A stretch of 41,760 nt of DNA from positions 1-41,760 of the IMG/VR virus record IMGVR_UViG_3300005663_000099, one strand, 5' to 3'. Under the pieces are notes generated by a model. That model was given only the letters and a program-made list of their open reading frames with translations, searched no databases and had not been told where the DNA came from. Shown one piece after another: positions 5,007-40,622 of the stretch; positions within the stretch are counted from its first letter, which is position 1, and every line of letters starts with the position of its first letter. The position numbers and the translations under genes were made by a program. This stretch comes from a virus.

Positions 5007-7910
5007 GTGGCCAAGCGGACGACCAACAGGTTCGTCGACGAGGTCCTCACACGCCGCGAGTCGTTCCAGGAGATCAGCGAGCGGACCGCGGCGAGCATGA
5101 GGCGAGAGCTGCTCCGGATCCGTAGGGAGAGCACCAGGATCCTGAGACGGAACCTCGGACCGTTCGTCGACCCCGAGGGGAACCTCACGTCGACCGGCGC
5201 CGCAAGGCTCGCCGCCCAGAGGACCGTCGACGACGTGAACGACGTGCTGCGCCGTGGACTGACCGGCGCCGAGTCGAAGCTCGGGGACGCGAGGCTCAGG
5301 GGTTTCAGGAGAGCCGCGGCCGACGCGGAGTTCAGCATCGACGCCGGGGCTGGGCAGAAGCTGACCCTCGGCTCGTCGACGTCGCAGATCTTCGAGGAGG
5401 CGGCGAGGCAGGCCGCGAGCAGGCCGGTGCTCGGCATTCCGGCGAACAGGCAGCTGCGCGGCGTGCTCAGGGCGACCGCCCAGAAGAACAGGGAGATCAT
5501 CACCGGCGCGGTCCTCAACGGTGAGGCGATCGGCGACACGGCAGAGAAGCTGAAGCAGGCCGGGGATCTGAACAACGCGGCCGCCGTCCGGATCGCGCGG
5601 AACAACATGAACGCGGTGGCGAACGACGCGCACCGCGCGGTGTACGAGGCGAACAGCGACATCTTCTCGGGGTACAAGTGGGACGCGACGTTCGACAATC
5701 GGACGACGGCTATCTGCGCGAGGCTGCACGGAACGATCTGGCCACTCGGCTCTGCTCCTCCCGGTCCTCCCGCCCACCAGAACTGCAGGAGCGTGCTGGT
5801 CGGGGTGTTCAAGGATCCGGAGATCGAGGAGTTCGCGCAGGCCGGCGAGCGGAGGGTCAGGAAGTACAACAAGACCGGAGAGGAGACGGGCAAGGAGCTG
5901 ATCTCCTCGAACAAACGGTTCGACGAGTGGCTCAGGACGCAGCCGAGCATCGTGCAAAACGACATCGCCGGCAGTCCTCTCAAGGGCAAGCTGTTCCGTC
6001 AGGGCAAGATCGACCTGAGGGACATCGTCGGGGACGACCTCCTGATCCGCGGGGACAGGCAGGTGGTGAGGAGAGCGCTGGCCAAGAGTCCGGCGGACGA
6101 GGCGCTCAAGTCGCTGGCCGACGACCTAGGAGTCAGGCCGGTCACTCAGGCGATCGTCGAGCAGGAGGACCTGCGTCTCGCGAGGAAGGCGGTACACGAC
6201 CTCGGAGACGACGCCGGGATGACGAGCCACCGAAGTTCCGTCGACTCGATCACGACGAGCGAGGAGAGGCTGCTCAAGAACGTCGAGAGCCGGGTGTCGA
6301 AGACGAAGAGGCGCATCCAGGACCTGGACGACGAGATCGGGGTGGAGACCAACGTCGATAGGCGACGGAAGCTGCTGGACAAGAAGCGAGCGTTGGAGAC
6401 CAAGCAGAGGGCCAATATCGCGGAGAGGAACAGACTGCGCAGGCTGAGGACGCTCCCACCGGAGCCGGTCCCTCCGCAGCCGATCGTCCCGGCGGACGAG
6501 CCTCCGGTGGTCAGGCCTCCGACGAAGCCGCTGCCCGGTGAACCGCTCCCGCTGACGGGCGAGGACCTGGAGGCGGCGAAGCGCAGGCTCAGGTCCGTCG
6601 AGTCGACGCTCTCGAGAAACAGAAAGAAGATCAGGGGACTCGAGGCGCAGCTGAACAACCAGAGGACGCCGACCGGCCAGATCGCCAGGGTGAAGCGCGG
6701 ACTGCAAGACTTGAACGGCAAGCAGGGGTTACTGATCGAGGAGCGTGACGCGCTGAAGGTAAGGATCAGGGCCAAGGCCTCGCCGGTCACGACGGCCAGC
6801 AAGCGCAGGAGGATCGGGCAGCTCAAGGAGACGAGTGACCCCGTCGGCAAGAAGGCCAGGGGGACTGATCCCGCGAAGTTGGACAAGGCCGAGCTAGACG
6901 ATATCGCGAAGAAGCAGAAGTTGGTGGACGAGGCGGAGGCGGAGGTTAGGAAGGCCAGGCGCCAGCAGACCCTGTTCAAGTCCGAGACCCGCAGGCTGAA
7001 GGACGAGCTGTTCCAACTGGTAAGGGCGCCGGCCAAGTTCGAGAGGCTCAACAAGGAGCTGAGCGTCGCGAGGAGCGGGCTTAGGAGAGCGCAGATCGAG
7101 GTGGTGGACGCTCAACGCAGGGTGCGCGCGGCTCAGAGACCGCTGACCAAGGCGTGGAGGGGCAGGCGCACGAGATTAGCGCCCGACCTCAGGAAGCCCA
7201 CCCCGCTCGGTACCACTGGTGAGGGGCTGGACGCCGCTCTCAAGCTGGCGCGCGAGGAGATGAAGACGCTTGGATTGACCAAGGAGAGATTGGCCAGCGA
7301 GGGCGCCGACTCGTTCCTCGATGCGCTAAGAGCGGCCAACAGGAGAACCAAGCTCAACAATGATCAGCTCACCATCGTGAGCAAGATGCGGAGGGGAATG
7401 AGACTCGCGGTGAAATCACCGTCCAAGGCCACGCTCGAGAGATGGTCGAAGACTATGAGAGAGCTGCTCGAGTCTATAGACGAGGGACTAACACGCGATG
7501 CGCTGCTCCAACAGATAGACTGGAACGCCCTTGGTAAGGTCAGAGCTGGCGCGAACAGGTTCGGTAACTCGATTACCATGGGCAGCGCGGACGAGAATTG
7601 GAAGGTGCTACACGAGTTCGCGCACCACATAGAGTACAGGAATTCGAGGGTGAGCGGTCGCGTGCAGACCTGGCTCCGCAGGAGGACCAGGGGCGAGACG
7701 CCGACGCCGCTCTGGCGCGGTTCTAACGAGGTTAGTAGGAAGGACAGGTTCTGGCACGACTACACCGGGCGCGTCTACGACGACGGGCGCATGGCCGAGG
7801 GGTTCACCCAGGGATTCGAGGCGCTATTCGACTCGGTGGAGTGGCAGGAGATACTCAAAAAGGACTTCGAGCACGTCGAGCTGATCTGGTCTCTGCTCAG
7901 GGGGTACTGA
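5007..7910 (+). CDS. MuF-type minor head protein fused to a zincin-like C-terminal domain
   Basis: Residues about 1-270 form a phage Mu gpF/SPP1 gp7-like head morphogenesis domain, with the hallmark DNRTTAICARLHG...PPAHQNCRS at about 228-262. These proteins sit inside the head by the portal and can be ejected with the DNA. A Pro-rich hinge (about 483-520) and long coiled-coil segments (about 410-740) follow. The last 120 residues contain HEFAH (869-873), a zinc protease HExxH motif, with a later acidic segment (AEGFTQGFEALF, Glu931 and Glu938) that could give the third ligand. MuF proteins with toxin or enzyme tails are a known polymorphic class. GTG start: the stop of the preceding frame is 3 bases upstream and GGGAGG precedes it. 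At 967 residues it is far longer than a plain MuF protein. Confidence 0.8.
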   Translation: MAKRTTNRFVDEVLTRRESFQEISERTAASMRRELLRIRRESTRILRRNLGPFVDPEGNLTSTGAARLAAQRTVDDVNDVLRRGLTGAESKLGDARLRGFRRAAADAEFSIDAGAGQKLTLGSSTSQIFEEAARQAASRPVLGIPANRQLRGVLRATAQKNREIITGAVLNGEAIGDTAEKLKQAGDLNNAAAVRIARNNMNAVANDAHRAVYEANSDIFSGYKWDATFDNRTTAICARLHGTIWPLGSAPPGPPAHQNCRSVLVGVFKDPEIEEFAQAGERRVRKYNKTGEETGKELISSNKRFDEWLRTQPSIVQNDIAGSPLKGKLFRQGKIDLRDIVGDDLLIRGDRQVVRRALAKSPADEALKSLADDLGVRPVTQAIVEQEDLRLARKAVHDLGDDAGMTSHRSSVDSITTSEERLLKNVESRVSKTKRRIQDLDDEIGVETNVDRRRKLLDKKRALETKQRANIAERNRLRRLRTLPPEPVPPQPIVPADEPPVVRPPTKPLPGEPLPLTGEDLEAAKRRLRSVESTLSRNRKKIRGLEAQLNNQRTPTGQIARVKRGLQDLNGKQGLLIEERDALKVRIRAKASPVTTASKRRRIGQLKETSDPVGKKARGTDPAKLDKAELDDIAKKQKLVDEAEAEVRKARRQQTLFKSETRRLKDELFQLVRAPAKFERLNKELSVARSGLRRAQIEVVDAQRRVRAAQRPLTKAWRGRRTRLAPDLRKPTPLGTTGEGLDAALKLAREEMKTLGLTKERLASEGADSFLDALRAANRRTKLNNDQLTIVSKMRRGMRLAVKSPSKATLERWSKTMRELLESIDEGLTRDALLQQIDWNALGKVRAGANRFGNSITMGSADENWKVLHEFAHHIEYRNSRVSGRVQTWLRRRTRGETPTPLWRGSNEVSRKDRFWHDYTGRVYDDGRMAEGFTQGFEALFDSVEWQEILKKDFEHVELIWSLLRGY

Positions 7911-8251
7911 TGCCGGACGTGGAGCTGTTCAGGCAGAGCGACGGGGAGATCGTCGGCCGCGTGTCGTTCGAATGGATCGACCCCGCGGAGTTCACGATCG
8001 AGAACATCCGCGTCCGCGTGCCGCGTCCGCTCTACAGGTTCGCGGTGGTCGACAACCTCGCGAACCCCAACCTGCACAAGCCGGTCGGCGGCGTAGGCGT
8101 CAGAGGGGTTGGCATCTACTACGAGGTGCTCCAGCAGGTGATGCTGGACGTGGCGGCGTCGCTCAAGGGTATTGACGTGAGGTTCCCAACTAAGCGGAAG
8201 CTGCCGAAGCGAATCAGTGAGGCTGACAGCGCGCCACTGCTGGAGACCTGA
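7910..8251 (+). CDS. Unknown protein directly after the MuF fusion
   Basis: 113 residues with no family I recognise. The ATG at 7910 overlaps the TGA of the MuF gene and follows AGGGGG at 7899-7904, so the two are translationally coupled. The first half is beta-rich and acidic (RVSFEWIDPAEFTIENIRVR), then comes a Gly/Val turn region and a helix, ending in a basic patch (PTKRKLPKR). Tight coupling to a possible toxin-like tail makes an immunity or chaperone role conceivable, but a plain head or connector protein is equally likely. Confidence 0.7.
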   Translation: MPDVELFRQSDGEIVGRVSFEWIDPAEFTIENIRVRVPRPLYRFAVVDNLANPNLHKPVGGVGVRGVGIYYEVLQQVMLDVAASLKGIDVRFPTKRKLPKRISEADSAPLLET

Positions 8252-8718
8252 TGGCGACGACACCGACCACCACACCGTACGCGACCGAGGCGTTCGCGGA
8301 CATCTACTTCGGCGAGCGCCTGGACTCCGAGGCCTGGGACAACGCCGTCGCGGGCAACAAGGAGAAGGCGCTGAAGCAGGCGACGCACGACATCGACAAC
8401 CTGAACTTCGTCGGCAGCAAGACCGACCCGGATCAGGAGAACGAGTTCCCGCGCCGCGGCGACACGACCGTGCCGGTCGAGATCCAGGAGGCCTGCGCCG
8501 AGCAGGCGATCGCCCTGCTCGAGGGGCTGGCGATCAAGAAGCTGCACGCGAAGGCCGGCATCGTGAGCGAGAGGGTGGGCGACGCGAGCAGGTCGTACGG
8601 CGAGGCGGGGCGGACGAAGTTCCTCGAGGAGAACCTGGGACTGAGCAGCCAGGAGGCGCTCCGCAAGCTGTACGAGTGGATGGTCGACCCGAGGGACATC
8701 ACGCTGGAGCGCGTGTAG
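8251..8718 (+). CDS. DnaT-like head-tail adaptor family protein
   Basis: 155 residues resembling the phage family labelled 'putative DnaT-like ssDNA-binding', whose members sit in head-tail connector positions. The pattern seen is an aromatic start (YATEAFADIYF), a central QATHDIDNLNFVGSKTDP, then a charged segment before PVEIQEACAEQAIALL. The known members have the same order of an alternating helix, a WxG-type turn and an alpha-helical C-terminus. It is probably a connector or head completion protein rather than a replication protein. ATG overlaps the preceding stop. It sits before the scaffold gene, earlier than usual for an adaptor. Confidence 0.6.
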   Translation: MATTPTTTPYATEAFADIYFGERLDSEAWDNAVAGNKEKALKQATHDIDNLNFVGSKTDPDQENEFPRRGDTTVPVEIQEACAEQAIALLEGLAIKKLHAKAGIVSERVGDASRSYGEAGRTKFLEENLGLSSQEALRKLYEWMVDPRDITLERV

Positions 8719-8790
8719 AACGTATTCGTGCCTGCGACCGCGCGTCCGCCCAAGCGCGCGCTAGGCGTCGGGCAAAGAGGAGGGCATGCC

Positions 8791-8985
8791 ATGCCCAAGC
8801 ACACGGGAGGAGGCGTCACGTCCTTCAACAACCGGATCGACGGCCTTCCGTCGGCGGCGAAGGTCAAGGGCGACCGTCCGAAGCCGGGGCTCAAGGGCCA
8901 GCCCACCAGGGGCAAGGGGCTGGGGAGCAATCCGCAGGCCGCGGCCCGCAAGGGCTTCGAGGAGGCCCGCAACCCCCGCAGCTAG
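8791..8985 (+). CDS. Small basic Gly/Pro-rich protein
   Basis: 64 residues, MPKHTGGGVTSFNNRIDG at the start, then a disordered-looking stretch rich in Lys, Gly and Pro, ending in a short helix (AAARKGFEEARNPRS). The ATG at 8791 has GAGGAGGG at 8777-8784 six bases upstream, better than the upstream in-frame GTG at 8728. Not recognised. Its place between connector and scaffold genes suggests a minor head component. Confidence 0.6.
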   Translation: MPKHTGGGVTSFNNRIDGLPSAAKVKGDRPKPGLKGQPTRGKGLGSNPQAAARKGFEEARNPRS

Positions 8986-9088
8986 CGCTGCGCGCACCCG
9001 GACGATTCCGGGGAAGGCCTAACCGTCGGGCCTCGTACGGCGGGACGCACCGGACCGCGCGGGTAAACAGCGGGTGGAGAACACAACG

Positions 9089-9997
9089 ATGAGATTCACG
9101 CAGTGGGCAGAATCGGGAGGCTACGTTCCTTTCAACCTGGCGCCGGACTTTCGTATGGGCCACGTCAACGTCTACTTCTTCGCCGATGCCGGCGGGGGTG
9201 ACGGCGGCGGAGGCGGCGGAGGCGGCGACGGAGGGGATGGGGGTGACGGAGGCGGAGGCGGAGGGGGTGACGGGGGAGGCGAGCCGGGCGGAGGCGACGG
9301 CGGTGCGGGCGGCGGAAGCGGCGGCACCGATCTGAAGTTCAGCCAGGCGGACCTGAACCGCATCTCCAAGAAGGAGCGGGACAAGTACAACTCTGAGAAG
9401 CAGGTGCTCATCGACCAACTCAAGGACGTGGAGAAGCAGAAGGGTCTGAGCGACGAGGCGAGGGCCAACCTGCAGACCCAGATCCGCGACGCGGAAGAGT
9501 CGCTCATGACCGCTCAGGAGAAGTCCAAGGCCGAACTTGGGCGGGCCGCCAAAGTACACGGCGAGGCGCTCGACGTCGAGAAGAGTCGGGCGGATCTGAA
9601 CTGGGACATGTACGTCTCGGAGAAGAAGCGCGTCGCCATCTCCGCCGCGGCCAGCAAGCACGGCGCCTACAGGGCCGAGCAGCTGACCGCGGTCGTGGAG
9701 CCGATGACGGAGATCGTTCCCGTCAAGGACTCCAACGACAACATCATCGGCCACGACGTGATCGTCAAGGTCACGGAGAAGGCCGAGGATGGCACCACGA
9801 AGGAAAAGGCGCTGACCGTCGACGAGTACGTCGACGCGATGAGGGCCAACGAGGATCACGCCAATCTGTTCGTGTCCACCAAGCAGGGTGGATCAGGGTA
9901 CCGGCCGGGGACCAGTGGAACCCCGATCGGCGATCTTTCCAACATGTCCGCCACGGACAAAATCAGAGCCGGGTTGAAGGCGGGAACGAACCGCTAA
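9089..9997 (+). CDS. Probable capsid scaffolding protein with a long Gly/Asp linker
   Basis: 302 residues immediately upstream of the major capsid gene, the classical scaffold position. After about 30 N-terminal residues comes a low-complexity tract of nearly 50 residues of Gly and Asp (9181-9331), then charged coiled coil (LKFSQADLNRISKKERDKYN onward), a short beta segment, and a C-terminal tail ending TDKIRAGLKAGTNR that could bind capsid. Scaffolds of the GP20 type share the charged helix. The ATG at 9089 has GGAG nine bases upstream; a GTG at 9074 would overlap that site. The Gly/Asp tract is unusual for a scaffold. Confidence 0.65.
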   Translation: MRFTQWAESGGYVPFNLAPDFRMGHVNVYFFADAGGGDGGGGGGGGDGGDGGDGGGGGGGDGGGEPGGGDGGAGGGSGGTDLKFSQADLNRISKKERDKYNSEKQVLIDQLKDVEKQKGLSDEARANLQTQIRDAEESLMTAQEKSKAELGRAAKVHGEALDVEKSRADLNWDMYVSEKKRVAISAAASKHGAYRAEQLTAVVEPMTEIVPVKDSNDNIIGHDVIVKVTEKAEDGTTKEKALTVDEYVDAMRANEDHANLFVSTKQGGSGYRPGTSGTPIGDLSNMSATDKIRAGLKAGTNR

Positions 9998-29493: not shown

Positions 29494-29712
29494 ATGACCA
29501 GGAAGAAAGCCGGTAAGGCGAAGCGCAAAGCCAAGAAGGTGCAGCGCAAGGTGGGGAAAGTCCTCGGGGAGTTCAAACGAGGGACGCTCCGCAGCTCGTC
29601 TGGCAAGAAAGTGACGAGTAAGAAGCAGGCCATCGCGATAGGTTTCAGCGAAGCAGGCGCTTCGCGTAAGAAGAAGAAGGGGAAGAAGCGCAAGGCACGG
29701 CGCAGGAGGTAG
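29494..29712 (+). CDS. Small basic protein of the DUF6496 type
   Basis: 72 residues. The core GEFKRGTLRSSSGKKVTSKK followed by QAIAIGFSEAG matches the short conserved family found in phages and bacteria next to structural genes, whose function is unknown. Both ends are Lys/Arg runs. A strong CGGAGGG site precedes the ATG. Nucleic-acid binding is likely from the charge. Confidence 0.7.
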   Translation: MTRKKAGKAKRKAKKVQRKVGKVLGEFKRGTLRSSSGKKVTSKKQAIAIGFSEAGASRKKKKGKKRKARRRR

Positions 29713-30119: not shown

Positions 30120-31952
30120 ATGGGAATCATGCAAGAGGAAGTAACGAAGACGAAGCTGTTCACGCTCTCGGTTTACGACGAGCGGCACTTCATCCTCCAC
30201 TTCGCGTCGCTCGACGCGGAGACCTACAACTACGCTCACGGGCTGGTCGCTGGTTTTCCCGAGCGTAGGTATCGCAAGTCCATCAACGCCTGGATCATCC
30301 CGTTCACCGAATCAACGTTCGACTACCTCGCCCTCAAGTTCACCGATGAGGAGTACGAGGTGGACTCGGATGCGCGTGTGGTCATCGACTACCACATGCG
30401 GACCCGCGAGTCGCTGAGCAAGAAGGAGATGCGCCGTTGGGAGTACGTGTTCGACGGTAAGGTGCCGGAGATCAAGCACGAGCCGAGGACGAAGGCGTAC
30501 AACCACCAGACTGTGTGCCTCGACGCATGGCACGGATCCGAGTACTTCGGTGTGCTCATGGACACTGGCGTCGGGAAGACTTGGGTCGCGGTGAACGAGG
30601 CCTGCTGGTCCGCGAACGAGAAGGTCGCGGCTGGGGGGTCGGCGTATAAATTGTTGATCGCCTGTCCAAAGTCTCTGCGCGGTACGTGGATGGCGCAGCT
30701 GAACGAGCACCTGCCCGAAGGCTATCCTTATTGGGTGAAGCGCGTGAGGGGTGGTCGGGTCTACGCAGTTCAGGACTGCATCAACTTCGTCAAGGTCAAG
30801 GACTACAAGCTCAAGGTTTTCATCTGCTCGTACGAGCAGGTCAAGAACATGCAGGAAGAACTCATCAAGATGAAGTTCGACCTGTTCGTGCTGGACGAGT
30901 CCACCCACATCAAGAACCCCGGTGCCAAGCGCACGAAGGGCTGCAACGAGGTCGGGGACTCGTGCTCGCGAAGGGCGATCATGACCGGCACGCCGGTTGC
31001 GAACAACGTCCTCGACCTCTACTCGCAGTTCAGGTTCCTGCAGGACGGGTGCCTCGGCTACGACACCTACAAAGGATTCAAGAACCGTTACGCGGTCGTG
31101 TCGCGACTCGAGAGTGGGTGGGAGCAGATCCAGGGTTATCAGAACATCGAGGAGCTCAAGCACCGTATGGCGAAGTGCTCCTTCGTCGTGCGCAAGAAGG
31201 ACTGCCTCGACCTACCTGAGAAGCAGTACATGCTGCACCCCGTCGAGATGGGACCTCGTCAGCAGTCGATGTACGATCAGATGGCTCAGCACTTCCTCAC
31301 TACCCTTGAGGAGGACATGAGCACGGTCGTCGGCGAGGGAATGGTGTCGGCAAAGATCATCCTCACGCAGTACCTCCGCCTCTCGCAGATATGCTCGGGC
31401 TTCGTCAAGACCGAGGAGGGCGACGAGGTAGGCATCAAGGACGGCGACGTCAAGCTGCAGCTGCTCAAGGAGCTGGTCGAGACGTTCGACCCGAACAACA
31501 AGTTCATCGTGTGGTCGCGGTTCACGTGGGAGGTCAACGCCATCACGGACCTGCTCGACGCCATGGGCGTCGGTTGGGGTAGGCTGAAGGGCAAGGACAG
31601 CGAGAAGAAGCGGGACGCGGCGATCGAGGGATTCAATCGTGACGACCTCGACGTGAGAGTGATCGTCGGAGACCAGGGTTGCGGGGGATACGGACTCACG
31701 CTGCTCGGCACGAAGGACCACCCCAACTCGGACATTATCTACCTGAGCAATGACTTCTCCTCGCTCAAGCGCGGACAGTCGGAGGATCGCGGTCACAGGA
31801 TCGGGATGCACGGCACCGTCACGTACCACGACATCGCCTGCGAGGATTCGATGGACTACGTGATCGCCAAGAGGTTGCAGAGCAAGAAGGAGATGGGCGA
31901 CCTGGTGAAGGACTACGAGTCGATACGGAGGCTTCTGCTTGGCCATGCCTAG
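30120..31952 (+). CDS. SNF2/DEAD-type superfamily 2 helicase
   Basis: 610 residues. ATP-dependent DNA translocase: motif I MDTGVGKTW (about 147-155), motif II LDES (258-261; DEST instead of DEAH), motif III MTGTPVANN (about 288-296), and in the second RecA fold a motif VI-like region SLKRGQSEDRGHRIG. The order and spacing match SNF2-type phage helicases that remodel forks or displace proteins. It is the first gene of the replication operon, preceded by GGAGAGG. The MCM-like protein downstream is the more likely main fork helicase. Confidence 0.85.
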   Translation: MGIMQEEVTKTKLFTLSVYDERHFILHFASLDAETYNYAHGLVAGFPERRYRKSINAWIIPFTESTFDYLALKFTDEEYEVDSDARVVIDYHMRTRESLSKKEMRRWEYVFDGKVPEIKHEPRTKAYNHQTVCLDAWHGSEYFGVLMDTGVGKTWVAVNEACWSANEKVAAGGSAYKLLIACPKSLRGTWMAQLNEHLPEGYPYWVKRVRGGRVYAVQDCINFVKVKDYKLKVFICSYEQVKNMQEELIKMKFDLFVLDESTHIKNPGAKRTKGCNEVGDSCSRRAIMTGTPVANNVLDLYSQFRFLQDGCLGYDTYKGFKNRYAVVSRLESGWEQIQGYQNIEELKHRMAKCSFVVRKKDCLDLPEKQYMLHPVEMGPRQQSMYDQMAQHFLTTLEEDMSTVVGEGMVSAKIILTQYLRLSQICSGFVKTEEGDEVGIKDGDVKLQLLKELVETFDPNNKFIVWSRFTWEVNAITDLLDAMGVGWGRLKGKDSEKKRDAAIEGFNRDDLDVRVIVGDQGCGGYGLTLLGTKDHPNSDIIYLSNDFSSLKRGQSEDRGHRIGMHGTVTYHDIACEDSMDYVIAKRLQSKKEMGDLVKDYESIRRLLLGHA

Positions 31953-32283
31953 AAAAATCTACACGCCCAAGAGGCTCGGACACGACTACTCTGACGCGGA
32001 GAAGTACGGCGAGATATTCGTCGTGTACGACAAGCACCAGAGCCCGTTCCAGATCCGCACAGCGCGGGAGATCGCGGAGGACTTCCTCAAGCAGCACCCA
32101 CCGAACGACGGCGATCTGCTGCTGGTGAGTGGCCCCGCGACGCTCAACATAGTATTGGCGAACTGCATCCTGACGAGGATCAGACGGCTCGGCATGCTGA
32201 TCTTCCACGCGCGGGATCGCATCTACATCGAGAGGGAATACTACAGTGAGTGCGACACCACGACAGGACAAGCGGGATCATAG
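31939..32283 (+). CDS. Unknown replication-operon protein
   Basis: 114 residues. The TTG at 31939 has GGAGG (31927-31931) seven bases upstream; the in-frame ATG at 31945 is 13 bases away, so the TTG start is preferred. The text is alpha/beta (GEIFVVYDKHQSPFQIRTAR; DGDLLLVSGPATLNIVLANC) with a basic N-terminus. No family recognised. It overlaps the helicase by 14 bases and the next gene by 38. Confidence 0.6.
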   Translation: MAMPRKIYTPKRLGHDYSDAEKYGEIFVVYDKHQSPFQIRTAREIAEDFLKQHPPNDGDLLLVSGPATLNIVLANCILTRIRRLGMLIFHARDRIYIEREYYSECDTTTGQAGS

Positions 32284-32836
32284 CGAGGTAGTCGGCAAGC
32301 TGCTCGAGCTGGAGCCGAAGATCAACGTCCTCCTTGATGAGGTGGCGTTGTACCTGGAGCGCGCTCCGGCTGAAGCCGTCACCATTGACCTCCAACGCTT
32401 AGGCGACCTCGTCCTCGCCATGGACAATATCAAGATCCAGTGTGAGGAGGGCAGGAAGGCGGTCAACAGGATCGCCCATAAAGTGCACGACCACTTCTGT
32501 CGCGAGATAGTAGACGCGGAGGAAGTTCCGTACAGACATCCGAATGCAACGTTCACACCACACGTAGACAGCGAGTTCTCGATCAAGAACGCGGACGCTC
32601 TGTTCAGCCACTTGCAGATAGCTCAGGGGCTGTCCCAGAAGGAGGCGTACGATCGATTCGTAGAGTTGGCGCAGAAGAAGTCCGAACGCAAGAAGCTGTG
32701 CCAGTCCTACCTTGAAGACGGACAACCCCTACCCGATGGGATGAAGGGGTTCAGTTGGGCGAAGGTCATCATCAGAAGGAAAAGGAGAAAAGGAAATGGC
32801 GGAGAAGAAGACAGAGGTAGCGAAGACGAGTTCTGA
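32246..32836 (+). CDS. Unknown replication-operon protein with an acidic C-terminal Phe tail
   Basis: 196 residues from GTG 32246 (GAGGG nine bases upstream). Long helices fill most of it (KINVLLDEVALYLER; NADALFSHLQIAQGLSQKEA). After a basic run (IIRRKRRKGNGG) it ends in an acidic tail with a terminal phenylalanine (EEDRGSEDEF), as the next three large replication proteins also do. That tail is encoded in a 41-base overlap with the next gene. Function unknown; binding to DNA or to the replisome is plausible. Confidence 0.6.
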   Translation: MSATPRQDKRDHSEVVGKLLELEPKINVLLDEVALYLERAPAEAVTIDLQRLGDLVLAMDNIKIQCEEGRKAVNRIAHKVHDHFCREIVDAEEVPYRHPNATFTPHVDSEFSIKNADALFSHLQIAQGLSQKEAYDRFVELAQKKSERKKLCQSYLEDGQPLPDGMKGFSWAKVIIRRKRRKGNGGEEDRGSEDEF

Positions 32837-33563
32837 GGTTCAGCTACCGGCCTACGTGGAGGAGGCGGAGGGAACGCTGGAGCACGCTCGCGCGAGCGAC
32901 TTCATCATCCCGCGACTCCTGCTGATGCAGTCGCTGTCGCCGCAGGTGGTGGACGGCGACGCGAAGTCCGGCGAACTCTACGAGAACGTGGAGGGCGCTC
33001 GGTTCGCCGAGTTGCTGGACAAGGACACCTCGGAATCGCTGGACTTCATCCCGTGCTACCACTACCTCGAGTGGTTCGAGTGGGCGGAGAGGAGCTCAGG
33101 CAAGGGCATCATCGCCCGCAGCACCGACCCGAAGGGAGTCCTGGCGCAGAGCGTCGCGCGCGGCGAGATGGTGCAGCGCGACGGACGCGACCTGTTCAAG
33201 GTGACGGAGTACCACAACTTCGTCAGCCTGTTCCCGGGCTACTCGCTCGAGAAGCCGGTGGTCATCAGCTGCAGCAAGACGCAGATCAAGAAGGCCCGCG
33301 CGCTGCTCACGCTGATCCGCTACCGCGGGCCGAAGGTTCCGCTGTACGCGGGCAAGTACACGGTCACGGGCATCAAAGAGCACAAGGCCGACTTCACGTA
33401 CTGGAACTTCGAGTTCGAGAACGCCGGCTTCGCGGAGGAGGTCGAGTACGCCGCGTCGAAGGCGCTCTTCAAGGTCTGCAAGGAAGCCTACGGTCGGGGC
33501 GCCCTGCAGTCGCACGTCGACGAGGACGACGAGCCGAGCCGAGGCAACGAGAAGGACTTCTAG
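32796..33563 (+). CDS. Probable single-stranded DNA-binding protein
   Basis: 255 residues. The N-terminal half has the form of a phage ssDNA-binding family: ASDFIIPRLLLMQSLSPQVV, then GELYENVEG and SLDFIPCYHYLEWFEW. The C-terminus is acidic and ends in phenylalanine (DEDDEPSRGNEKDF), like SSB and T7 gp2.5, where this tail binds partner proteins. It sits among helicase, exonuclease and polymerase genes. The fold itself cannot be proven by eye. AAAAGGAGAAAAGG precedes its ATG. Confidence 0.6.
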   Translation: MAEKKTEVAKTSSEVQLPAYVEEAEGTLEHARASDFIIPRLLLMQSLSPQVVDGDAKSGELYENVEGARFAELLDKDTSESLDFIPCYHYLEWFEWAERSSGKGIIARSTDPKGVLAQSVARGEMVQRDGRDLFKVTEYHNFVSLFPGYSLEKPVVISCSKTQIKKARALLTLIRYRGPKVPLYAGKYTVTGIKEHKADFTYWNFEFENAGFAEEVEYAASKALFKVCKEAYGRGALQSHVDEDDEPSRGNEKDF

Positions 33564-33572
33564 TCTCGAGCG

Positions 33573-33808
33573 AGGGAGAAGGGTGGTCCTGCTGGTAACG
33601 GCGGACAAGGTTGCTCCAACTACCTGAAACACCCCACTCTCCCTAGCACCTGCGAGGCGAGGAAGGCGGACGTGCAGCGTGGAAGGACATGCTACCCCGC
33701 TAGGCCCGAGGGTAAAAGTGCAGCCGAGGCCTCTTGAAGGCACAGCTGAAATATCGGGCGAAGAGCACATCCAATAGCCGGTGTCGAATCCGGTCACGTC
33801 CGTCTTCC
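33573..33808 (+). ncRNA. Candidate structured RNA (uncharacterised)
   Basis: The 261-base gap between two genes holds two helical domains. The 5' domain pairs AGGGAGA (33573-33579) with TCTCCCT (33638-33644), inside it GGGTG (33581-33585) with CACCC (33630-33634), then GGTA/TACC (33594-33597/33621-33624) stacked on a GTTG-ctc-CAAC hairpin (33610-33620). The 3' domain is closed by 14 base pairs (33661-33674 with 33795-33808, one G-T) and contains CAGC/GCTG, GCCT/AGGC, CCCGA/TCGGG and a CCGG-TGTCGAAT-CCGG arm resembling a tRNA T arm. I can match no known family. It might be an independent RNA, a leader regulating the next gene or a replication signal. Confidence 0.5.
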
Positions 33809-33824
33809 AATATCACGGGGTCTC

Positions 33825-34145
33825 ATGAGAAACTGCGCCATAGGTGGATGCGATCAGCGGCACCCGGACGTGTGCCCGAGCTGCACGCACTGGAATCCGT
33901 CTACCGGAAGCCGCTACTACTTCTGCGCGAGGTATCAGGCCTCGAGGGCCACGTGCGATCTACCGCACGAAGCCTGCGCGACCTGCGACTACTTCGAGGG
34001 CGATCTGTCCCGCACCATGGGGCCAGGTCGTCCGAACATGAGCGGCATCGATTGGAACGACCCAGAGCACGTCCGCAAGTACTACCGCGAGAAGATGCGC
34101 AGACGTCGAGCCAACGCGAAGCTGGCGGAGGGATTCGAGGTATGA
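33825..34145 (+). CDS. Cys-rich, probably zinc-binding protein
   Basis: 106 residues. The first 65 carry eight cysteines in pairs (CAIGGC, CPSC, FCARY, ATC, ACATC), consistent with one or two zinc knuckles; the rest is a basic helix (KYYREKMRRRRANAKLAEG). ATG at 33825 has only a weak GGGG upstream and lies 16 bases after the structured RNA, so translation may be controlled by it. It overlaps the exonuclease gene (TATGA). A nucleic-acid-binding role is likely. Confidence 0.65.
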   Translation: MRNCAIGGCDQRHPDVCPSCTHWNPSTGSRYYFCARYQASRATCDLPHEACATCDYFEGDLSRTMGPGRPNMSGIDWNDPEHVRKYYREKMRRRRANAKLAEGFEV

Positions 34146-35146
34146 GCGAGTTCATGCTGATCGACGGTTCGCTCATGGCCTACCGCTACTACGAAGCGAT
34201 GCCGGACCTGTCGAACAGTTCAGGTACGCCGACGAACGTGGAGTACGGGATGCTCCGCGGTCTCGAATCCCTGGAGCGGAAGTACCCCGACGCGCAGCTC
34301 GTGCTGGTGTGGGATTCTCCCAAGGCCAAGAGCGAGAAGCAGAAGATCGACCCGCTGTACAAGGCGAACCGCTCGCCCGGCGGCAAGCGCGGTCTGTGGT
34401 CGCGGCTGGAGAGGTTGAAGGAGCGCGTGATCCGGCACAGGTGGGCTAACGCGAAGCTGGACGGGATTGAGGCCGACGAAGTAATGTACAGCATCGCACG
34501 CCACCTTGCACCGGCCTACCCACACGAGACCAACATCCCTTCCAAGAACCTAGTGCTCCTGTACACGAACGACGAGGATCTGCTGCAGACGATCACCGAC
34601 AATATCATAGTGCTCAAGTCCCACCAGTCCAAGATATTCGAGTGGGACGGGGAGAAGGTAGTGGAGAAGTTCGGCGTCCACCCACACCAGCTCCCGCTAC
34701 TCCGCGCGGCACTCGGTGACAAGTCCGACAACCTGCCTGGATGCGGATGCCTCGGCCGGCCGAAACTCGCGCAGGCCGTACGCGAGGCGTTCAAGGTCGC
34801 CTTCGAATCACGTCAAGTTTCAGCTGGTCCTGCCGACCTCGTCAAGAACATCGCGGAGAACCACGTCACGTGGTTCGGCCCTAAGACCAGGGTCAAGTGG
34901 GACGGCTTCGTGGCTAGCGGCCAGCTCCACCGCAACTTCGAGCTGATGCAGATCAGGCTCAACCCCGACGTCGAGACCGAGCGGGAGTTCTACCGCAGCA
35001 ACCACGTGCGGAAGGTGACCATGCTCTGGGTGGAACCCACGCTGGAGGTCGAGCCGGTGGCGGAGGCCCTGGCCGAGTGGGAGATCAAGTCGCTGCGGAT
35101 GTGCAAGGAAGTGTTCGCGAAGGCGGAGGACGACGAGGAGTTCTAG
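34142..35146 (+). CDS. FEN-type 5'-3' exonuclease
   Basis: 334 residues. Removes RNA primers and 5' flaps; it is the separate 5' nuclease that family A polymerases of this type need. The metal-site residues are recognisable: MLIDGSLMAYRY (Asp8), VLVWDSPKAKSEKQ then YKANRSPGG (arch), GIEADEVMYSIA, LLYTNDEDLLQ, and the helix-3-turn-helix entry ALGDKSDNLPGCGCLG (190-205). The C-terminus ends AKAEDDEEF, an acidic tail with terminal Phe. ATG overlaps the upstream stop; its stop overlaps the next GTG (TAGTG). Normal length. Confidence 0.88.
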   Translation: MSEFMLIDGSLMAYRYYEAMPDLSNSSGTPTNVEYGMLRGLESLERKYPDAQLVLVWDSPKAKSEKQKIDPLYKANRSPGGKRGLWSRLERLKERVIRHRWANAKLDGIEADEVMYSIARHLAPAYPHETNIPSKNLVLLYTNDEDLLQTITDNIIVLKSHQSKIFEWDGEKVVEKFGVHPHQLPLLRAALGDKSDNLPGCGCLGRPKLAQAVREAFKVAFESRQVSAGPADLVKNIAENHVTWFGPKTRVKWDGFVASGQLHRNFELMQIRLNPDVETEREFYRSNHVRKVTMLWVEPTLEVEPVAEALAEWEIKSLRMCKEVFAKAEDDEEF

Positions 35147-37989
35147 TGGCTGACGTCAACGAGACCCTGGCCTGGCTCGAGCAGTTTGACGTGCACGGCG
35201 AGTCGATAGGTGAGGACGAGTTCAAGACCCTGTGTCCGTTCCACGAGGACACGGAGCCGTCTTGCTCGATCAACCTAGACAAGCGTGTATTCAAGTGCTA
35301 CGCGTGCGGAGCACAGGGCGACATCTTCAAATTCCTGGCTGGGAAGATCGGCAAGTCTAAGTCGGCCGTCCAGAAGCTGCTCAAGATTCAGAGTGCGGCA
35401 GGCGACCTCGACACCATCTCGCCTGACCTGATCCTCAAGTGGCACCGCGATCTGCGGGCGTCGAAGAAGTGGCTGAACGTCCTGAAGGGCAAGGGCATCG
35501 AACCGCAGACGGTGGACGACTACCTGCTAGGGATCGACGGTAAGCGCATCACCATCCCGGTGAAGAACAGAGCCGGCGACTTCGTCAATGTCCGCAAGTA
35601 CAAACCCAACGCTGTCGCGACAGACAAGAAGACGATCAACCTCAAGGGGTACGGCAACGCGATGCTGTACCCTATGGAGGCTCTGGGCTTCGACGAGATC
35701 TTCGTAACGGAGGGCGAGTGCAAGGCTCTCCTGCTGAACCAGCTCGGGTTCCCGGCTGTGTCTCCGACTGGTGGAGCTGACACGTGGTCCGAGTCCTGGA
35801 ACCTGCACTTCGCCGACAAGCGCGTGGTGGTGATCTACGACATAGACGACGCCGGCAGAGCCGGCGCGAACCGAGTGGCCAAGAACGTCTACCCCGTCGC
35901 CACCGACGTCCGGGTGGTCAGACTTCCCATGTCGCGCAAGGAGTACCGCAAGGGTGACATAACGGACTTCGTCGTGGCGCTTGGCCACGGCGCCGAGGAG
36001 ATCCGCAGGCTGGTCGAGAACTCCGAGCCGTGGTCTCCTTCCATCTTCTTCGACGAGGGGGAGGTCGAAGACGAGAAGGTTCACACGATGCACCTGGCGA
36101 AGTCCTCGTCGGCCAAGTACTCCGGCAAACTGGTCGAGAGCGAGGTGGTCGTAAGCGCGAAGGACGTCGCTCCGTACATCGTGCCGAAGAAGTTCGAGGT
36201 CAAGTGCACGAAGGACAAGGAGATCTGCACGATCTGCCCCATCTTCAATTCCAAGGACGAGGGCACGGTCACGATAGACAACAAGCACCCGGTGCTGCTC
36301 GAGATGCTGAACATCCACAAGGACAAGCTGGCCCGCGTACTCCAACGGGCGGCGAGCATCCCGAAGCAGTGCGACGTCTGCCGATTCAAGATCATCGAGA
36401 CGGTGAACATCGAGGAGCTCCGCCTGGTGCCCCAGCTCGGTATCAGCACGACCGAGGAGGAGCACGTCGCGAAGCGCGCATTCTACGTCGGCTACGGGAT
36501 AGAGACGAACAGCCCGTACGTCATCAGGGCCAGGGTAGTCCCGGAGCCGAACACGCAGTACGCGACGATGATCGTCTACGAGGCCGAGGCCGCGCAGGAT
36601 TCGCTGAGCACGTTCAAGCTCACGGAGAAGATGGCCAGGAGGCTGATGAAGTTCCAGCCGGACGCCTGGACCGAGGCCAGCGTGGATCAGAGACTCGACG
36701 AGATCTACGAGGACCTGGAGGCCAACGTCACCAGGATCTACCAGCGCCGGGACATGCACCTGCTAGTGGACCTGGTCTACCACTCCGTGCTCTACATCCC
36801 ATTCCAGGGGAAGAACGTGAAGGGGTGGGTCGAGGGCATCATCCTAGGCGACTCGGGCCAGGGCAAGTCGGAGACCGCGTCGCTGATGCGGAACCACTAC
36901 AGCCTCGGCGAGAAGTTCGACACGAAGGGGGCGACCGCGGCCGGTCTCCTGGGCGGAGCGATGGAGACGGCCAAGAGGTGGTTCATCACGTGGGGGATCA
37001 TCCCGCTGAACGACAGGCGCCTCGTGATACTCGAGGAGATCAAGGGGATGAACCCCGAGGTCATCGCCAAGCTCACGGACATGCGGTCGTCGGGCGTCGC
37101 GGAGATCGTCAAGATCGAGAGGGCGAAGACCAACGCCAGGTGCAGGCTGCTCTGGATCAGCAACCCCCGCGCGGACAAGCAGATCATGTCGTACAACTTC
37201 GGGGTGGGGGCGATCAAGGAACTGATCGGCTCGCTCGAGGACATACGCCGATTCGACATCGCGATCCTCGTCGCGTCCGGCGAGGTCGACAAGAAGTGGC
37301 TCAACGTGTCGGACAAAGACCGTCCGAAGATCAAGGCCACCTACGACCAGGAGTTGTGCCGCTCGCTCGTGCTGTGGGCCTGGTCGATGGATCCGAAGTC
37401 GGTTAGGATAGACGACGACGCGCAGGCTCAGCTGCTCAAGTACGCCGGCGAGATGGGCGACAAGTACTCGTCGCAGATACCGCTAGTGGAGACGGCCGAC
37501 CACCGGCTGAAGCTGCTCCGCCTGTCGGCGTCCCTCGCCGCACGGACGTTCTCAACCGATAACGGAGGGAGCAGCCTGACCGTGCGCAAGTGCCACGTCG
37601 ACTACATCGCGAATTTCATGGACAAGCTCTACTCCTCCGCTGTGTTCGGCTACAACACGTTCAGCGACCTGCTACGGGGCGAGGACTCGCTGCACGACGA
37701 GAAGGAGATAATCAACGAGCTGTCCGCCATCCCCCACGCGAAGGACACGGTGAGATCGCTCCTCGAGAGCAAGGGCATCACGGTCTTCGACATAGCGGAC
37801 CTGACCGGGATGGACATGGACAAGTGCCGGGAGCTGATCGGGTTCCTGGTGCGGAAGAACGCGCTGAAGAAGGGCAGGCGGGCGTACGTGAAGTCGCCGG
37901 CGTTCATCGCCCTGCTCAAGCGACTCCAGCTCGGCGACGAGTTGGAGAACAGGACGGCGGCAGACATCACTGGCGAGGAGGAGTTCTGA
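35146..37989 (+). CDS. DnaG-type primase fused to an MCM-like AAA+ helicase
   Basis: 947 residues from GTG 35146. Residues about 25-65 are a CHC2 zinc finger (Cys30, His33, Cys51, Cys54). About 130-290 is a TOPRIM primase core (FVTEGECKALLL, Glu189; YDIDDAGRAG, Asp232-235). A middle region has two CxxC pairs (361/364, 409/412) as in the zinc subdomain of MCM N-termini. The helicase part has Walker A GDSGQGKS (568-575), GATAAGLLGG, Walker B LVILEE (626-631; Glu-Glu for Asp-Glu), RCRLLWISNPR (sensor) and IRRFD (700-704, arginine finger). Phage primase fusions normally carry a DnaB/RecA-type helicase. C-terminal winged helix follows, then GEEEF. Overlaps neighbours at both ends. Confidence 0.82.
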   Translation: MADVNETLAWLEQFDVHGESIGEDEFKTLCPFHEDTEPSCSINLDKRVFKCYACGAQGDIFKFLAGKIGKSKSAVQKLLKIQSAAGDLDTISPDLILKWHRDLRASKKWLNVLKGKGIEPQTVDDYLLGIDGKRITIPVKNRAGDFVNVRKYKPNAVATDKKTINLKGYGNAMLYPMEALGFDEIFVTEGECKALLLNQLGFPAVSPTGGADTWSESWNLHFADKRVVVIYDIDDAGRAGANRVAKNVYPVATDVRVVRLPMSRKEYRKGDITDFVVALGHGAEEIRRLVENSEPWSPSIFFDEGEVEDEKVHTMHLAKSSSAKYSGKLVESEVVVSAKDVAPYIVPKKFEVKCTKDKEICTICPIFNSKDEGTVTIDNKHPVLLEMLNIHKDKLARVLQRAASIPKQCDVCRFKIIETVNIEELRLVPQLGISTTEEEHVAKRAFYVGYGIETNSPYVIRARVVPEPNTQYATMIVYEAEAAQDSLSTFKLTEKMARRLMKFQPDAWTEASVDQRLDEIYEDLEANVTRIYQRRDMHLLVDLVYHSVLYIPFQGKNVKGWVEGIILGDSGQGKSETASLMRNHYSLGEKFDTKGATAAGLLGGAMETAKRWFITWGIIPLNDRRLVILEEIKGMNPEVIAKLTDMRSSGVAEIVKIERAKTNARCRLLWISNPRADKQIMSYNFGVGAIKELIGSLEDIRRFDIAILVASGEVDKKWLNVSDKDRPKIKATYDQELCRSLVLWAWSMDPKSVRIDDDAQAQLLKYAGEMGDKYSSQIPLVETADHRLKLLRLSASLAARTFSTDNGGSSLTVRKCHVDYIANFMDKLYSSAVFGYNTFSDLLRGEDSLHDEKEIINELSAIPHAKDTVRSLLESKGITVFDIADLTGMDMDKCRELIGFLVRKNALKKGRRAYVKSPAFIALLKRLQLGDELENRTAADITGEEEF

Positions 37990-38327
37990 TGATGGTCGTT
38001 CCCACCGATGTGTACCTGGAGCAGGTCAAGATCCAGGTCAGGACCAAGGGCCGGTACCCGACCGACAAGCACGAGGACCACAAGGACCGCTGCCTCCAGC
38101 TCGCGGCCGAGGTGTTCGAGGTGCTGGAGCTGGCCGAGTGGAAGCCGCACCGCCACGACCGGACCAAACCCATCGACAGGGAGAAGCTGAAGGACGAGCT
38201 GGTGGACGTCTACAAGTTCTGGCTGAACCTCCTCATCATCCACGGCATCGGACCGCAGGAGTTCGAGGACGCCTACAACAAGAAGCACGGGATCGTGCTG
38301 GACAGACTACGACAGGAGGGGTTATGA
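37989..38327 (+). CDS. MazG/dUTPase-like all-alpha NTP pyrophosphohydrolase
   Basis: 112 residues. The metal-binding helices are visible as AAEVFEVLELAEW and KDELVDVYKFWLNLLI, followed by the end typical of the superfamily (FEDAYNKKHGIVLDRL). Members hydrolyse NTPs or dNTPs to the monophosphate and pyrophosphate. ATG at 37989 overlaps the primase stop (TGATGA); an ATG follows directly. It is coupled to a second pyrophosphohydrolase gene and the DNA polymerase. Substrate unknown. Confidence 0.7.
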   Translation: MMVVPTDVYLEQVKIQVRTKGRYPTDKHEDHKDRCLQLAAEVFEVLELAEWKPHRHDRTKPIDREKLKDELVDVYKFWLNLLIIHGIGPQEFEDAYNKKHGIVLDRLRQEGL

Positions 38328-38752
38328 CACAGGATGACAGGGCCGACAAGTTCGACATCGCCGACGAGAGGGTGAGGGTGGATCTGCTGCCGTCCCACCC
38401 GCTGGTCGAGATCGCGAAGGTGCTCACCCACGGCGCCGGGAAGTACGGGGCGGACAACTGGCGACGGGGCCTGGAGTGGAGGAGGTACTACGGCGCGGTG
38501 ATGCGTCACATGCTCGCGTGGGAGGGAGGCGAGGACCTGGACCCGGACAGCGGACTGTCCCACCTCGCGTGCGCGGGATGCAACGTCCTCTTCCTGATCG
38601 AGATGGCCAGGACGCGACCGGACCTGGACGACAGGTTCAAGTACAAGGCCGAGCTGATCGGCGACTCCGACGTCAAAGTTCGCTACCTGCCGCGCAGTCC
38701 GCTTCAGACGGGAGGCATCGCGCATGGCGCGGACCCTGATACAGACAGCTGA
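38324..38752 (+). CDS. dATP/dGTP pyrophosphohydrolase-like protein (MazZ-type, DUF5664)
   Basis: 142 residues from ATG 38324 (AGGAGGGG upstream, ATGA overlap). The sequence follows the DUF5664 pattern: RVDLLPSHPLVEIAKVLTHG, AGKYGADNWRRGLEW, RRYYGAVMRHMLAWEGGED and LSHLACAGCNVLFLIE. Characterised MazZ proteins hydrolyse dATP/dGTP in phages that replace adenine with diaminopurine, but the family is also common in ordinary phages, and no PurZ is in the window. The last 29 bases overlap the polymerase gene. Confidence 0.75.
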   Translation: MTQDDRADKFDIADERVRVDLLPSHPLVEIAKVLTHGAGKYGADNWRRGLEWRRYYGAVMRHMLAWEGGEDLDPDSGLSHLACAGCNVLFLIEMARTRPDLDDRFKYKAELIGDSDVKVRYLPRSPLQTGGIAHGADPDTDS

Positions 38753-40622
38753 GCAGCTCCCGCGGTTCGATCCGAAGGAGCCGCTGTTCGTCGACCTGGA
38801 GACCACCTCCTTCGACGACGGCGAGCCGGCGTTCCAACCGTTCAAAGGTCACAGGGCGGCGGGCTACGCGATCTGCACGGCGGACGGGAGGGACGCCTGG
38901 TACCTCCCGCTCCGCCACCACGGGTCGGACGTGGCCGAGAAGGTCAACCACAACTTCGATCTGAAGCAGGCGCAGTCCTGGCTCCAGGGCGTGATCGGCT
39001 CCGGCCGGGACATCCACAACCACAACATCAAGTTCGACGGGCGCTTCTGGCACTTCGACGGGTGCGAGGCGAAGGGCAGGCTGGTGGACACGCTGGTGCT
39101 CGCCCGCCTGGTCGACAACGACCGGGTGGCGTACGGCCTGAACGCGCTGACCGGATCCAAGACCGACGAGGACATCAAGGCCTACCTGAAGTCCATCAAG
39201 TCCAAGGACTACGGTCGCGTGCCGATAGACCTCATGGCCAGGTACGCGATGAACGACGTGGTCATCACGCAGAAGCTCGAGGTCGAGCTGCTGAAGAAGC
39301 TCCGGCCGGAGACCGCCCCCGTGTGGGACGTCGAGCAGAGGCTCACCAGCCAGCTGCTCAAGTGGGAGATACACGGGATACGGGTTAACAAGAGGCGGCT
39401 GGCTAAGGCATGGAGGGTCAGGCTGGAGCAGGCCATAGGCCTGGAGGAGCAGGTCCACGAGGCAGCGGGCGTGGTGTTCGACGTGAACTCCGACAAGGAC
39501 GTCACGCGGGTGATGATAGGGAAGCTCGGCATCGAGCCGGTCGCCTGGACCAAGTCCAAGAACCCGCAGTGGAACAAGGAGGCGCTGGCGATGATCCACC
39601 ATCCCATCGCGCGCCTGCTGGCGGAGTGCAGGAGGGAGTACCACTTCTGCTCGCTCTTCTGCGAGGGCTGGCTGAAGAGGATCGGCGACGACGGGAGGAT
39701 GCACGCCAACTTCAACCTGGGTGGCACGAGGACGGGGCGCCTGTCGTCCAGCGACCCTAACCTGCAGAACTCCAACGACGACGCGAAGCAGAACATCGAC
39801 GCGGACGAGGACTGTGACATAGTATCCAGCGACTTCTCGCAGATCGAGTACAGACTCTTCGGCCACTACGCCGGGGACAGGGAGATCATCGCGGCGTACG
39901 CCGCGAACCCCAATCAGGATTACCACCAGGCCCTCGCCGACATGCTCGGCATCTCGAGGCAGGTGGCGAAGACCATGAACTTCGCGTTCATCTACGGGAT
40001 GGGAAAGCGCAAGCTGCTGAGGAAGCTGTCGGTGATGATGGCCCACGAGTCAGAGGACTCCGCGATGATCGCGAGGCTGACGTCGTTCCTGCCGAACTAC
40101 GACGGGCACGAACTGCAGGAGGCGGACTACGACAAGATCGCGTCGAACGTCTTCGACACCTACCACAGGAAGATGCCCGCGGTCCGCAAGCTGACGCGCC
40201 GGGTGAAGGACAAGGTCGAGGTCCACGGCTACCTCCGTAATTGGAGGGGGCGGATCTACAGGTTCCCGGATCCGCAGTACAGCTACAAGGCGCCGAACTA
40301 CCTGATCCAGGGATCGGCCGCGGACATCTTCAAGGAGAGGCTGCTCGCCGTCCTCGAGCAGTTCCCCTACGCCCGCCTCGTGACGAACGTCCACGACGAC
40401 TGCGTGTTCTCCGTGCCGAAGGACATGACGGAGGAGTTCGTCCGCGAACACCGCAAGGTGCTCGTCGACGTTCAGCCGGTTGAGGGGACGAAGCCGCTCC
40501 GAGTTCCGATGGTCGTCGAGACGAAAGTCAGCAGCAGGGTGTGGGGACAAGCGGTGAAGGTCGGCGACGACGGAGACGTGGCCAAGGCCCTCGCGGAAAG
40601 TGAGTTCGGGCACGCGGCGTGA
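38724..40622 (+). CDS. Family A DNA polymerase with 3'-5' exonuclease
   Basis: 632 residues. The replicative polymerase. Exonuclease residues: FVDLETTSF (Asp24, Glu26), HNIKFDGRFW, YAMNDVVITQKL. Polymerase motif A SSDFSQIEYRLFGHY (catalytic Asp370), motif B RQVAKTMNFAFIYGMG (Lys416, Phe420, Tyr424) and motif C VHDDCVF (Asp558, Asp559; Asp in place of the usual Glu). No 5' nuclease domain, in line with the separate FEN gene. GGAGG (38711-38715) sits eight bases before the ATG. It is the last large gene of the replication operon. Confidence 0.93.
   Translation: MARTLIQTAEQLPRFDPKEPLFVDLETTSFDDGEPAFQPFKGHRAAGYAICTADGRDAWYLPLRHHGSDVAEKVNHNFDLKQAQSWLQGVIGSGRDIHNHNIKFDGRFWHFDGCEAKGRLVDTLVLARLVDNDRVAYGLNALTGSKTDEDIKAYLKSIKSKDYGRVPIDLMARYAMNDVVITQKLEVELLKKLRPETAPVWDVEQRLTSQLLKWEIHGIRVNKRRLAKAWRVRLEQAIGLEEQVHEAAGVVFDVNSDKDVTRVMIGKLGIEPVAWTKSKNPQWNKEALAMIHHPIARLLAECRREYHFCSLFCEGWLKRIGDDGRMHANFNLGGTRTGRLSSSDPNLQNSNDDAKQNIDADEDCDIVSSDFSQIEYRLFGHYAGDREIIAAYAANPNQDYHQALADMLGISRQVAKTMNFAFIYGMGKRKLLRKLSVMMAHESEDSAMIARLTSFLPNYDGHELQEADYDKIASNVFDTYHRKMPAVRKLTRRVKDKVEVHGYLRNWRGRIYRFPDPQYSYKAPNYLIQGSAADIFKERLLAVLEQFPYARLVTNVHDDCVFSVPKDMTEEFVREHRKVLVDVQPVEGTKPLRVPMVVETKVSSRVWGQAVKVGDDGDVAKALAESEFGHAA

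Follow-up and report, generated by a model that had tools for sequence, protein, structure and literature searches.

Covarying acidic C-terminal tails on a Gp34-like protein and a primase-helicase of a virus genome point to a common docking code

The 41,760-base virus record IMGVR_UViG_3300005663_000099, analysed in its entirety and referred to here as the window, carries a replication block whose genes all lie on the plus strand. The block runs from a SNF2 helicase through Pam3 gp32-like, gp33-like and Gp34-like proteins, a Cys-rich protein, a 5'-3' exonuclease and a primase-helicase to two nucleotide pyrophosphohydrolase-like genes (starting at 37989 and 38312) and a family-A DNA polymerase (Table 1). 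Four of these proteins end in acidic residues followed by Phe: the gp33-like protein (SEDEF), the Gp34-like protein (NEKDF), the exonuclease (DDEEF) and the primase-helicase (GEEEF). A sequence-only reading of this DNA had claimed such endings on four replication proteins and interpreted them as a common docking code for a single receptor. All four frames and endings were confirmed, and exactly these four genes end in Phe among the 42 called genes of at least 60 amino acids in the whole window. Pfam matches bear out their description as replication proteins for the exonuclease and primase-helicase, and the predicted fold does so for the Gp34-like protein; the gp33-like protein is placed with them by gene neighbourhood only. 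Since the gp33-like and Gp34-like genes overlap by 41 bases, and the end codons of the exonuclease and helicase are capable of acting as Shine-Dalgarno sequences, the reservation about codon context made in the same reading needed testing.

The endings were compared across more than 100 viral contigs retrieved by scans with primase-helicase alignments, the Gp34 alignment being too variable for use as a query. Two contigs from metagenome-assembled genomes carrying near full-length relatives were added, and named phages were found by tblastn and examined with their annotation. Single-protein scans of IMG/VR gave no close relatives of the primase-helicase, the exonuclease or the gp33-like protein. 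The 87 loci with both Gp34 and helicase are the basis of the pair comparison; gene calls were mechanical, several contigs are fragments, and the tree and parsimony were simple.

Across these genomes, the last residues of Gp34 and the helicase match within a genome and differ between genomes (F/F, Y/Y, M/M, L/L, I/I and V/V). Matching pairs include GADM/GADM (L002), DTQY/GNQY (L021), DSEM/NPEM (L051), AEEI/GSEI (L062), SDEV/NSEV (L065), TGEL/ESEL (L014), KAEF/KAEF (L100), TKF/EKF (L091) and SDIPF/DDIPF (L071), and NSEV is paired with ASEV on one contig that was read as two pieces (L102, L016). After dereplication at 80% helicase identity, the last residue was identical in 32 of 52 genomes against 11.9 expected from shuffling, and in 16 of the 24 non-Phe pairs against 3.8 expected; the shuffling P value is the limit of 50,000 shuffles. 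Because shuffling ignores phylogeny, the changes were mapped onto a tree built from the helicase bodies without their tails. Seventeen changes were counted in each protein, nine of which fell on common branches (2.6 expected; hypergeometric P 6e-5), and all nine led to the same residue in both proteins. Among informative independent pairs, eight were concordant and none swapped. The match is confined to the extreme C-terminus, at 73% for position -1 (28% expected), 59% for -2 (39%) and 20% for -3 (10%), with none beyond -4, and the helicase's last residue was present in only 29 of 479 other genes (6%). That the last residue switched jointly on about nine branches speaks strongly, if indirectly, for a shared site, and the view that Gp34 and the helicase carry a co-evolving C-terminal docking tripeptide is well supported by these sequence comparisons. 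The earlier claim of a common docking code stands in this sense for two of the four proteins, the Gp34-like protein and the primase-helicase, with covariation beyond phylogeny. The code is not a fixed Phe, which drifts to Y, M, L, I or V and is often replaced in homologues, mostly but not always by the same residue in both proteins. Gene conversion of tail DNA was considered and rejected, as the codons differ (AAGGACTTC against GAGGAGTTC) and the similarity ends after about three residues.

The primase-helicase of the window ends in ...AADITGEEEF. In two genomes (L100, 6989-9822; L101, 6686-9531) primase and MCM helicase are encoded separately, and the tail is found on the MCM gene, with helicase KAEF beside Gp34 KAEF in L100 and helicase KEDF beside Gp34 GEDF in L101. 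The tail belongs to the helicase half of the protein. It was also observed that the L071 primase-helicase (6890-9871) ends in AVADDDDIPF, which is literally the tip of the bacterial single-stranded DNA-binding protein (SSB), and that its Gp34 ends in DSDIPF.

The Gp34-like protein, which ends in ...DEDDEPSRGNEKDF, belongs to the Pam3_Gp34 family (PF23977, E 9.8e-35; phrog_2402, E 7.4e-28), and phrog_2402 was matched by 28 of 34 of its relatives. Pam3_Gp34 is its sole Pfam match, and the bacterial SSB profile was not matched. The AlphaFold2 (AF2) model has a predicted local distance difference test (pLDDT) score of 87 and an oligonucleotide/oligosaccharide-binding (OB)-like fold, with the last 11 residues disordered. 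A Foldseek search against the PDB gave no match at E<=0.001; fold matches were obtained to the phiC31 recombination directionality factor (Z 9.1), the BRCA2 OB region (Z 6.3), T4 gp32 (Z 5.4) and RPA and SSBs (Z ~2.5-4). On this modelled structure the protein is a probable OB-fold single-stranded DNA (ssDNA)-binding protein, which would offer a possible role for Pam3_Gp34/phrog_2402, a widespread family of unknown function. The best fold match, phiC31 gp3 (9teh, 4% identity), is encoded among the phiC31 replication genes. Homology with this factor is suggested by the fold but has no sequence support, and both phiC31 gp3 and the phiC31 primase have D as last residue, without a tail of the Gp34/helicase kind. 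Several phages with Gp34 relatives (Bm1, VP2, OH) carry genes for a 2-aminooxy adenylosuccinate synthetase (PurZ-like) and a dATP triphosphohydrolase, which makes a 2-aminoadenine genome worth considering.

The gp33-like protein was linked by phmmer to L102 (4e-9) and L094 (5e-7). It has no Pfam match of its own; its homologue L102 matches PF23984/DUF7307 (7e-10). Its AF2 model has a pLDDT of 89 with a low-confidence tail, predicted to be disordered, and Foldseek gave no match in the PDB at E<=0.001. Of 14 aligned sequences, three carry an F tail: those of the window, of L095 and of L027, the last having no overlap with the Gp34 gene. The exonuclease ends in ...AKAEDDEEF. Code-matching acidic-Tyr tails, SESY and LEEY, were also found on the SNF2 helicases of two Tyr-code relatives (L061, 166-1893; L130, 1267-2979). 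When one genome per 95% cluster was taken, window included, and tails were required to match their own genome's code, ten of 794 other genes carried one, two of these being the gp33-like and exonuclease genes of the window. The gp33-like and exonuclease tails seem to be cases in which the same code was recruited locally.

Table 1. Genes and C-terminal tails of the replication block in the window.
Feature	Position	Strand	Basis
SNF2-type helicase, no tail in the window	30120..31952	+	PF00176 1.5e-24
Pam3 gp32-like small protein, alternative receptor candidate	31939..32283	+	PF23992 2.4e-9
Pam3 gp33-like protein, 196 aa; helical/beta core and disordered extension KRRKGNGGEEDRGSEDEF, absent from most relatives	32246..32836	+	phmmer, alignment, AF2
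Tail GGEEDRGSEDEF of gp33-like protein, second frame over start of Gp34 gene	32798..32833	+	sequence; alternative-frame control
Pam3 Gp34-like protein, OB-fold-like, probable ssDNA-binding protein, 255 aa	32796..33563	+	PF23977 E 9.8e-35
Disordered tail DEPSRGNEKDF of Gp34-like protein; covarying code is the final three residues	33528..33560	+	pLDDT <50 at residues 245-255
Small Cys-rich protein, kept in nearest relatives, without tail	33825..34145	+	alignment
5'-3' exonuclease / flap-type nuclease, 334 aa	34142..35146	+	PF02739 E 2e-26
Tail AEDDEEF of exonuclease; GAGGAG (35135-35140) also Shine-Dalgarno-capable for GTG start at 35146	35123..35143	+	sequence
DnaG-type primase (CHC2 zinc ribbon and Toprim) fused to MCM-type AAA+ helicase, 947 aa	35146..37989	+	PF01807 2.7e-13, PF00493 MCM 5e-6
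Tail TGEEEF on helicase half	37969..37986	+	sequence; covariation
Family A DNA polymerase carrying a 3'-5' exonuclease domain; favoured receptor candidate, itself without tail	38724..40622	+	PF00476 4.3e-56

Apart from a 260-base gap between the Gp34-like and Cys-rich genes (33563-33825), the block is tightly packed. MazG-like and dATP/dGTP diphosphohydrolase genes adjoin the polymerase (37989-38752; also in L005, L006 and L009). Upstream, at 29494-29712, lies a very basic open frame of 72 amino acids, Lys/Arg-rich along its whole length, with the C-terminal end KKKKGKKRKARRRR.

Such packing could in principle have produced the endings as a by-product, with GAGGAG (Glu-Glu) serving as the Shine-Dalgarno sequence of the next gene and the gp33-like tail being a shadow of the Gp34 start. 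The starts at 35146 and 37989 are indeed closely preceded by GAGGAG, and GAGGAGGAG (37975-37983) provides tail codons while being Shine-Dalgarno-capable for the ATG at 37989; the gp33-like tail falls entirely within the Gp34 overlap, and, of 65 helicases, 37 show coupling to the gene that follows. However, helicases more than 25 nucleotides from the next gene have about as many acidic residues in their last ten as coupled ones (2.27 vs 2.30) and mostly retain a hydrophobic end (80% vs 92%), and Gp34 is mostly uncoupled and still has its tail. Seventy-four alternative frames through Gp34 starts were read; an acidic ending with Phe came up in just two genomes, the window and L095, and in both that frame truly ends the gp33-like gene. 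An ATGA overlap limits the last helicase codon to NNA, but the uncoupled Gp34 of genomes so restricted is also aliphatic in five of seven cases, which suggests compensation, although the numbers are small. As sole cause, codon context is excluded for the helicase and Gp34, unlikely for the gp33-like protein and possible for part of the exonuclease tail, which could not be cleared of this effect because no relatives were found. Codon context is not a sufficient explanation of the tails, and we regard their origin as packing by-products as very improbable.

The best explanation, which we consider probable, is a covarying C-terminal docking code read by a common pocket of the phage replisome. The last three or so residues of the flexible Gp34 and helicase tails, usually Asp/Glu and then a hydrophobic residue whose carboxyl end is free, would form this code and fit a pocket belonging to the replisome of the phage itself. 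This code drifts from one phage to the next (F, Y, M, L, I, V), and we propose that it does so in step because both proteins must fit the same pocket. The non-Phe codes argue for a phage-encoded receptor, and we infer that such a receptor is common to both proteins. The family-A DNA polymerase would be the most likely carrier of the pocket, with the helicase and the ssDNA-binding protein docking there one after the other; this is a guess, favoured by analogy with T7 and by the finding of the polymerase in 32 of the 37 tail-bearing relatives whose flanking sequence was long enough. In the window phage, the exonuclease and gp33-like tails, if they work in the same way as those of Gp34 and the helicase, as we would guess, may draw primer/flap removal, as well as an accessory factor of the gp33 type, to this shared hub, which in the two Tyr-code relatives the SNF2 helicase would also have joined. 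More tentatively, the code may be a drifting C-terminal 'password' that changes in concert, one phage-encoded socket reading the three terminal residues of several proteins, namely the ssDNA-binding protein, the MCM-type helicase and, by recruitment, the exonuclease, gp33-like protein or SNF2 helicase. If so, the replisome parts of co-infecting phages would stay apart.

Several observations weigh against the common-pocket explanation. In one clade Gp34 keeps Phe while the helicase has Y, M or L (L112, L114, L115, L132, L135), so that the matching is not strict. The gp33-like F tail is missing in 11 of 14 sequences and is unmatched to the Gp34 code in L095 and L027, and neither the IMG/VR scan nor the comparison loci yielded exonuclease relatives for tail comparison. 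A column-wise partial-Mantel analysis of the polymerase, SNF2, gp32-like and Gp34 proteins found no receptor column above phylogenetic noise, and no biochemical data on the family were found in the literature searched.

It is also possible, though we lean away from it, that a functional code is common to Gp34 and the helicase alone, the tails of the exonuclease and gp33-like protein being coincidental, which would be compatible with the common-pocket explanation for the other two. Against an 'acidic and Phe' background of about 0.5%, two extra cases have a P of ~0.0008 among about eight replication genes and ~0.02 among about 40 genes, both values being rough and non-phylogenetic. The latter figure, which counts all 40 other genes, favours coincidence, as do the rarity of gp33-like tails and the failure to find tailed exonuclease relatives. 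Both proteins, however, lie in the replication block with a last residue equal to the local code, and the gp33-like tail recurs in L095 and in L027, in the latter free of the Gp34 overlap. A different receptor is envisaged if the tails dock not on the polymerase but in Gp34's own ssDNA-binding groove, giving self-inhibition and helicase recruitment to Gp34-coated DNA. In crystals of T7-type SSBs, the tail of one molecule lies in the groove of a neighbour (PMC5686142), no third protein would be needed, the co-drift would be explained, and the helicase code is weakly associated with Gp34 body columns. That association is barely above a null that ignores phylogeny, and partial-Mantel values at or just above such a null were not counted as evidence; moreover, binding in the groove would be expected to be mainly electrostatic and should not demand a defined last residue. 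Groove docking is considered unlikely. Mimicry of the host SSB C-terminus, by which the tails would hijack host SSB-binding proteins, draws on the many Gp34 relatives ending in DDEVPF, DEEIPF or GEIPF and on the L071 helicase ending DDDDIPF, which carries the bacterial motif (DDDIPF; PMC5872125). In genomes where a DUF669-type protein replaces Gp34 (L017, L019, L028-L033, L067, L073, L078, L087), that protein mostly ends in ...PF and the primase-helicase has no tail, again in keeping with mimicry. Yet the SSB tip is described in the same source as highly conserved, whereas in many of the present phages both proteins end in M, L, I, V or Y, and mimicry appears improbable.

Among known systems, the gp32-gp33-gp34 trio of Pam3 (PF23992, PF23984, PF23977) has the same families in the same order as the window. 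These families are of unknown function in PHROGs and are named after phage genes in Pfam, and no description of their tails or of a pairing with a helicase was found in the literature searched. The bacterial SSB tip resembles the present tails in being acidic and disordered with a terminal hydrophobic residue, and several Gp34 relatives and one helicase have a literal xDIPF; it differs in that the tip is here also found on a helicase and that the last residue is often not Phe.

The closest likeness is to T7, in which gp2.5 (DGDF) and gp4 (DTDF) both have acidic-Phe tails beside a family-A polymerase; here too an ssDNA-binding-type protein and a primase-helicase are both acidic with a terminal hydrophobic or aromatic residue. 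T7 gp4 bearing the gp2.5 tail stays active. The annotated gp2.5 and gp4 proteins of the T3, Erwinia, Kayfunavirus and Ghunavirus phages sampled likewise have acidic-Phe endings, and those of RHEph01 end in DDDIPF and ETAPF. In P-SCSP1i an unannotated upstream protein ends in EEEF and gp4 in L, while in JSF34 gp4 ends in F and the candidate gp2.5 is uncertain. The T7 helicase is of the SF4/DnaB type, whereas the helicase half here matches MCM (PF00493) and not SF4 (RecA/DnaB-like). Phe is near-constant in the T7-group phages sampled, in contrast to the F, Y, M, L, I and V that change in step here; no sequence relation of Gp34 to gp2.5 was detected, and T7 exonuclease gp6 has no tail, unlike that of the window. 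The acidic tail of the T7 helicase attaches to basic patches on the polymerase (PMC5997990; PMC12230644). For acidic-Phe tails on a helicase and an ssDNA-binding protein, T7 is the textbook replisome, but its near-fixed residue gives little evolutionary handle; the joint switching described here would turn identification of the receptor into a swap experiment, and the principle of tail docking would be seen on an unrelated, MCM-type helicase.

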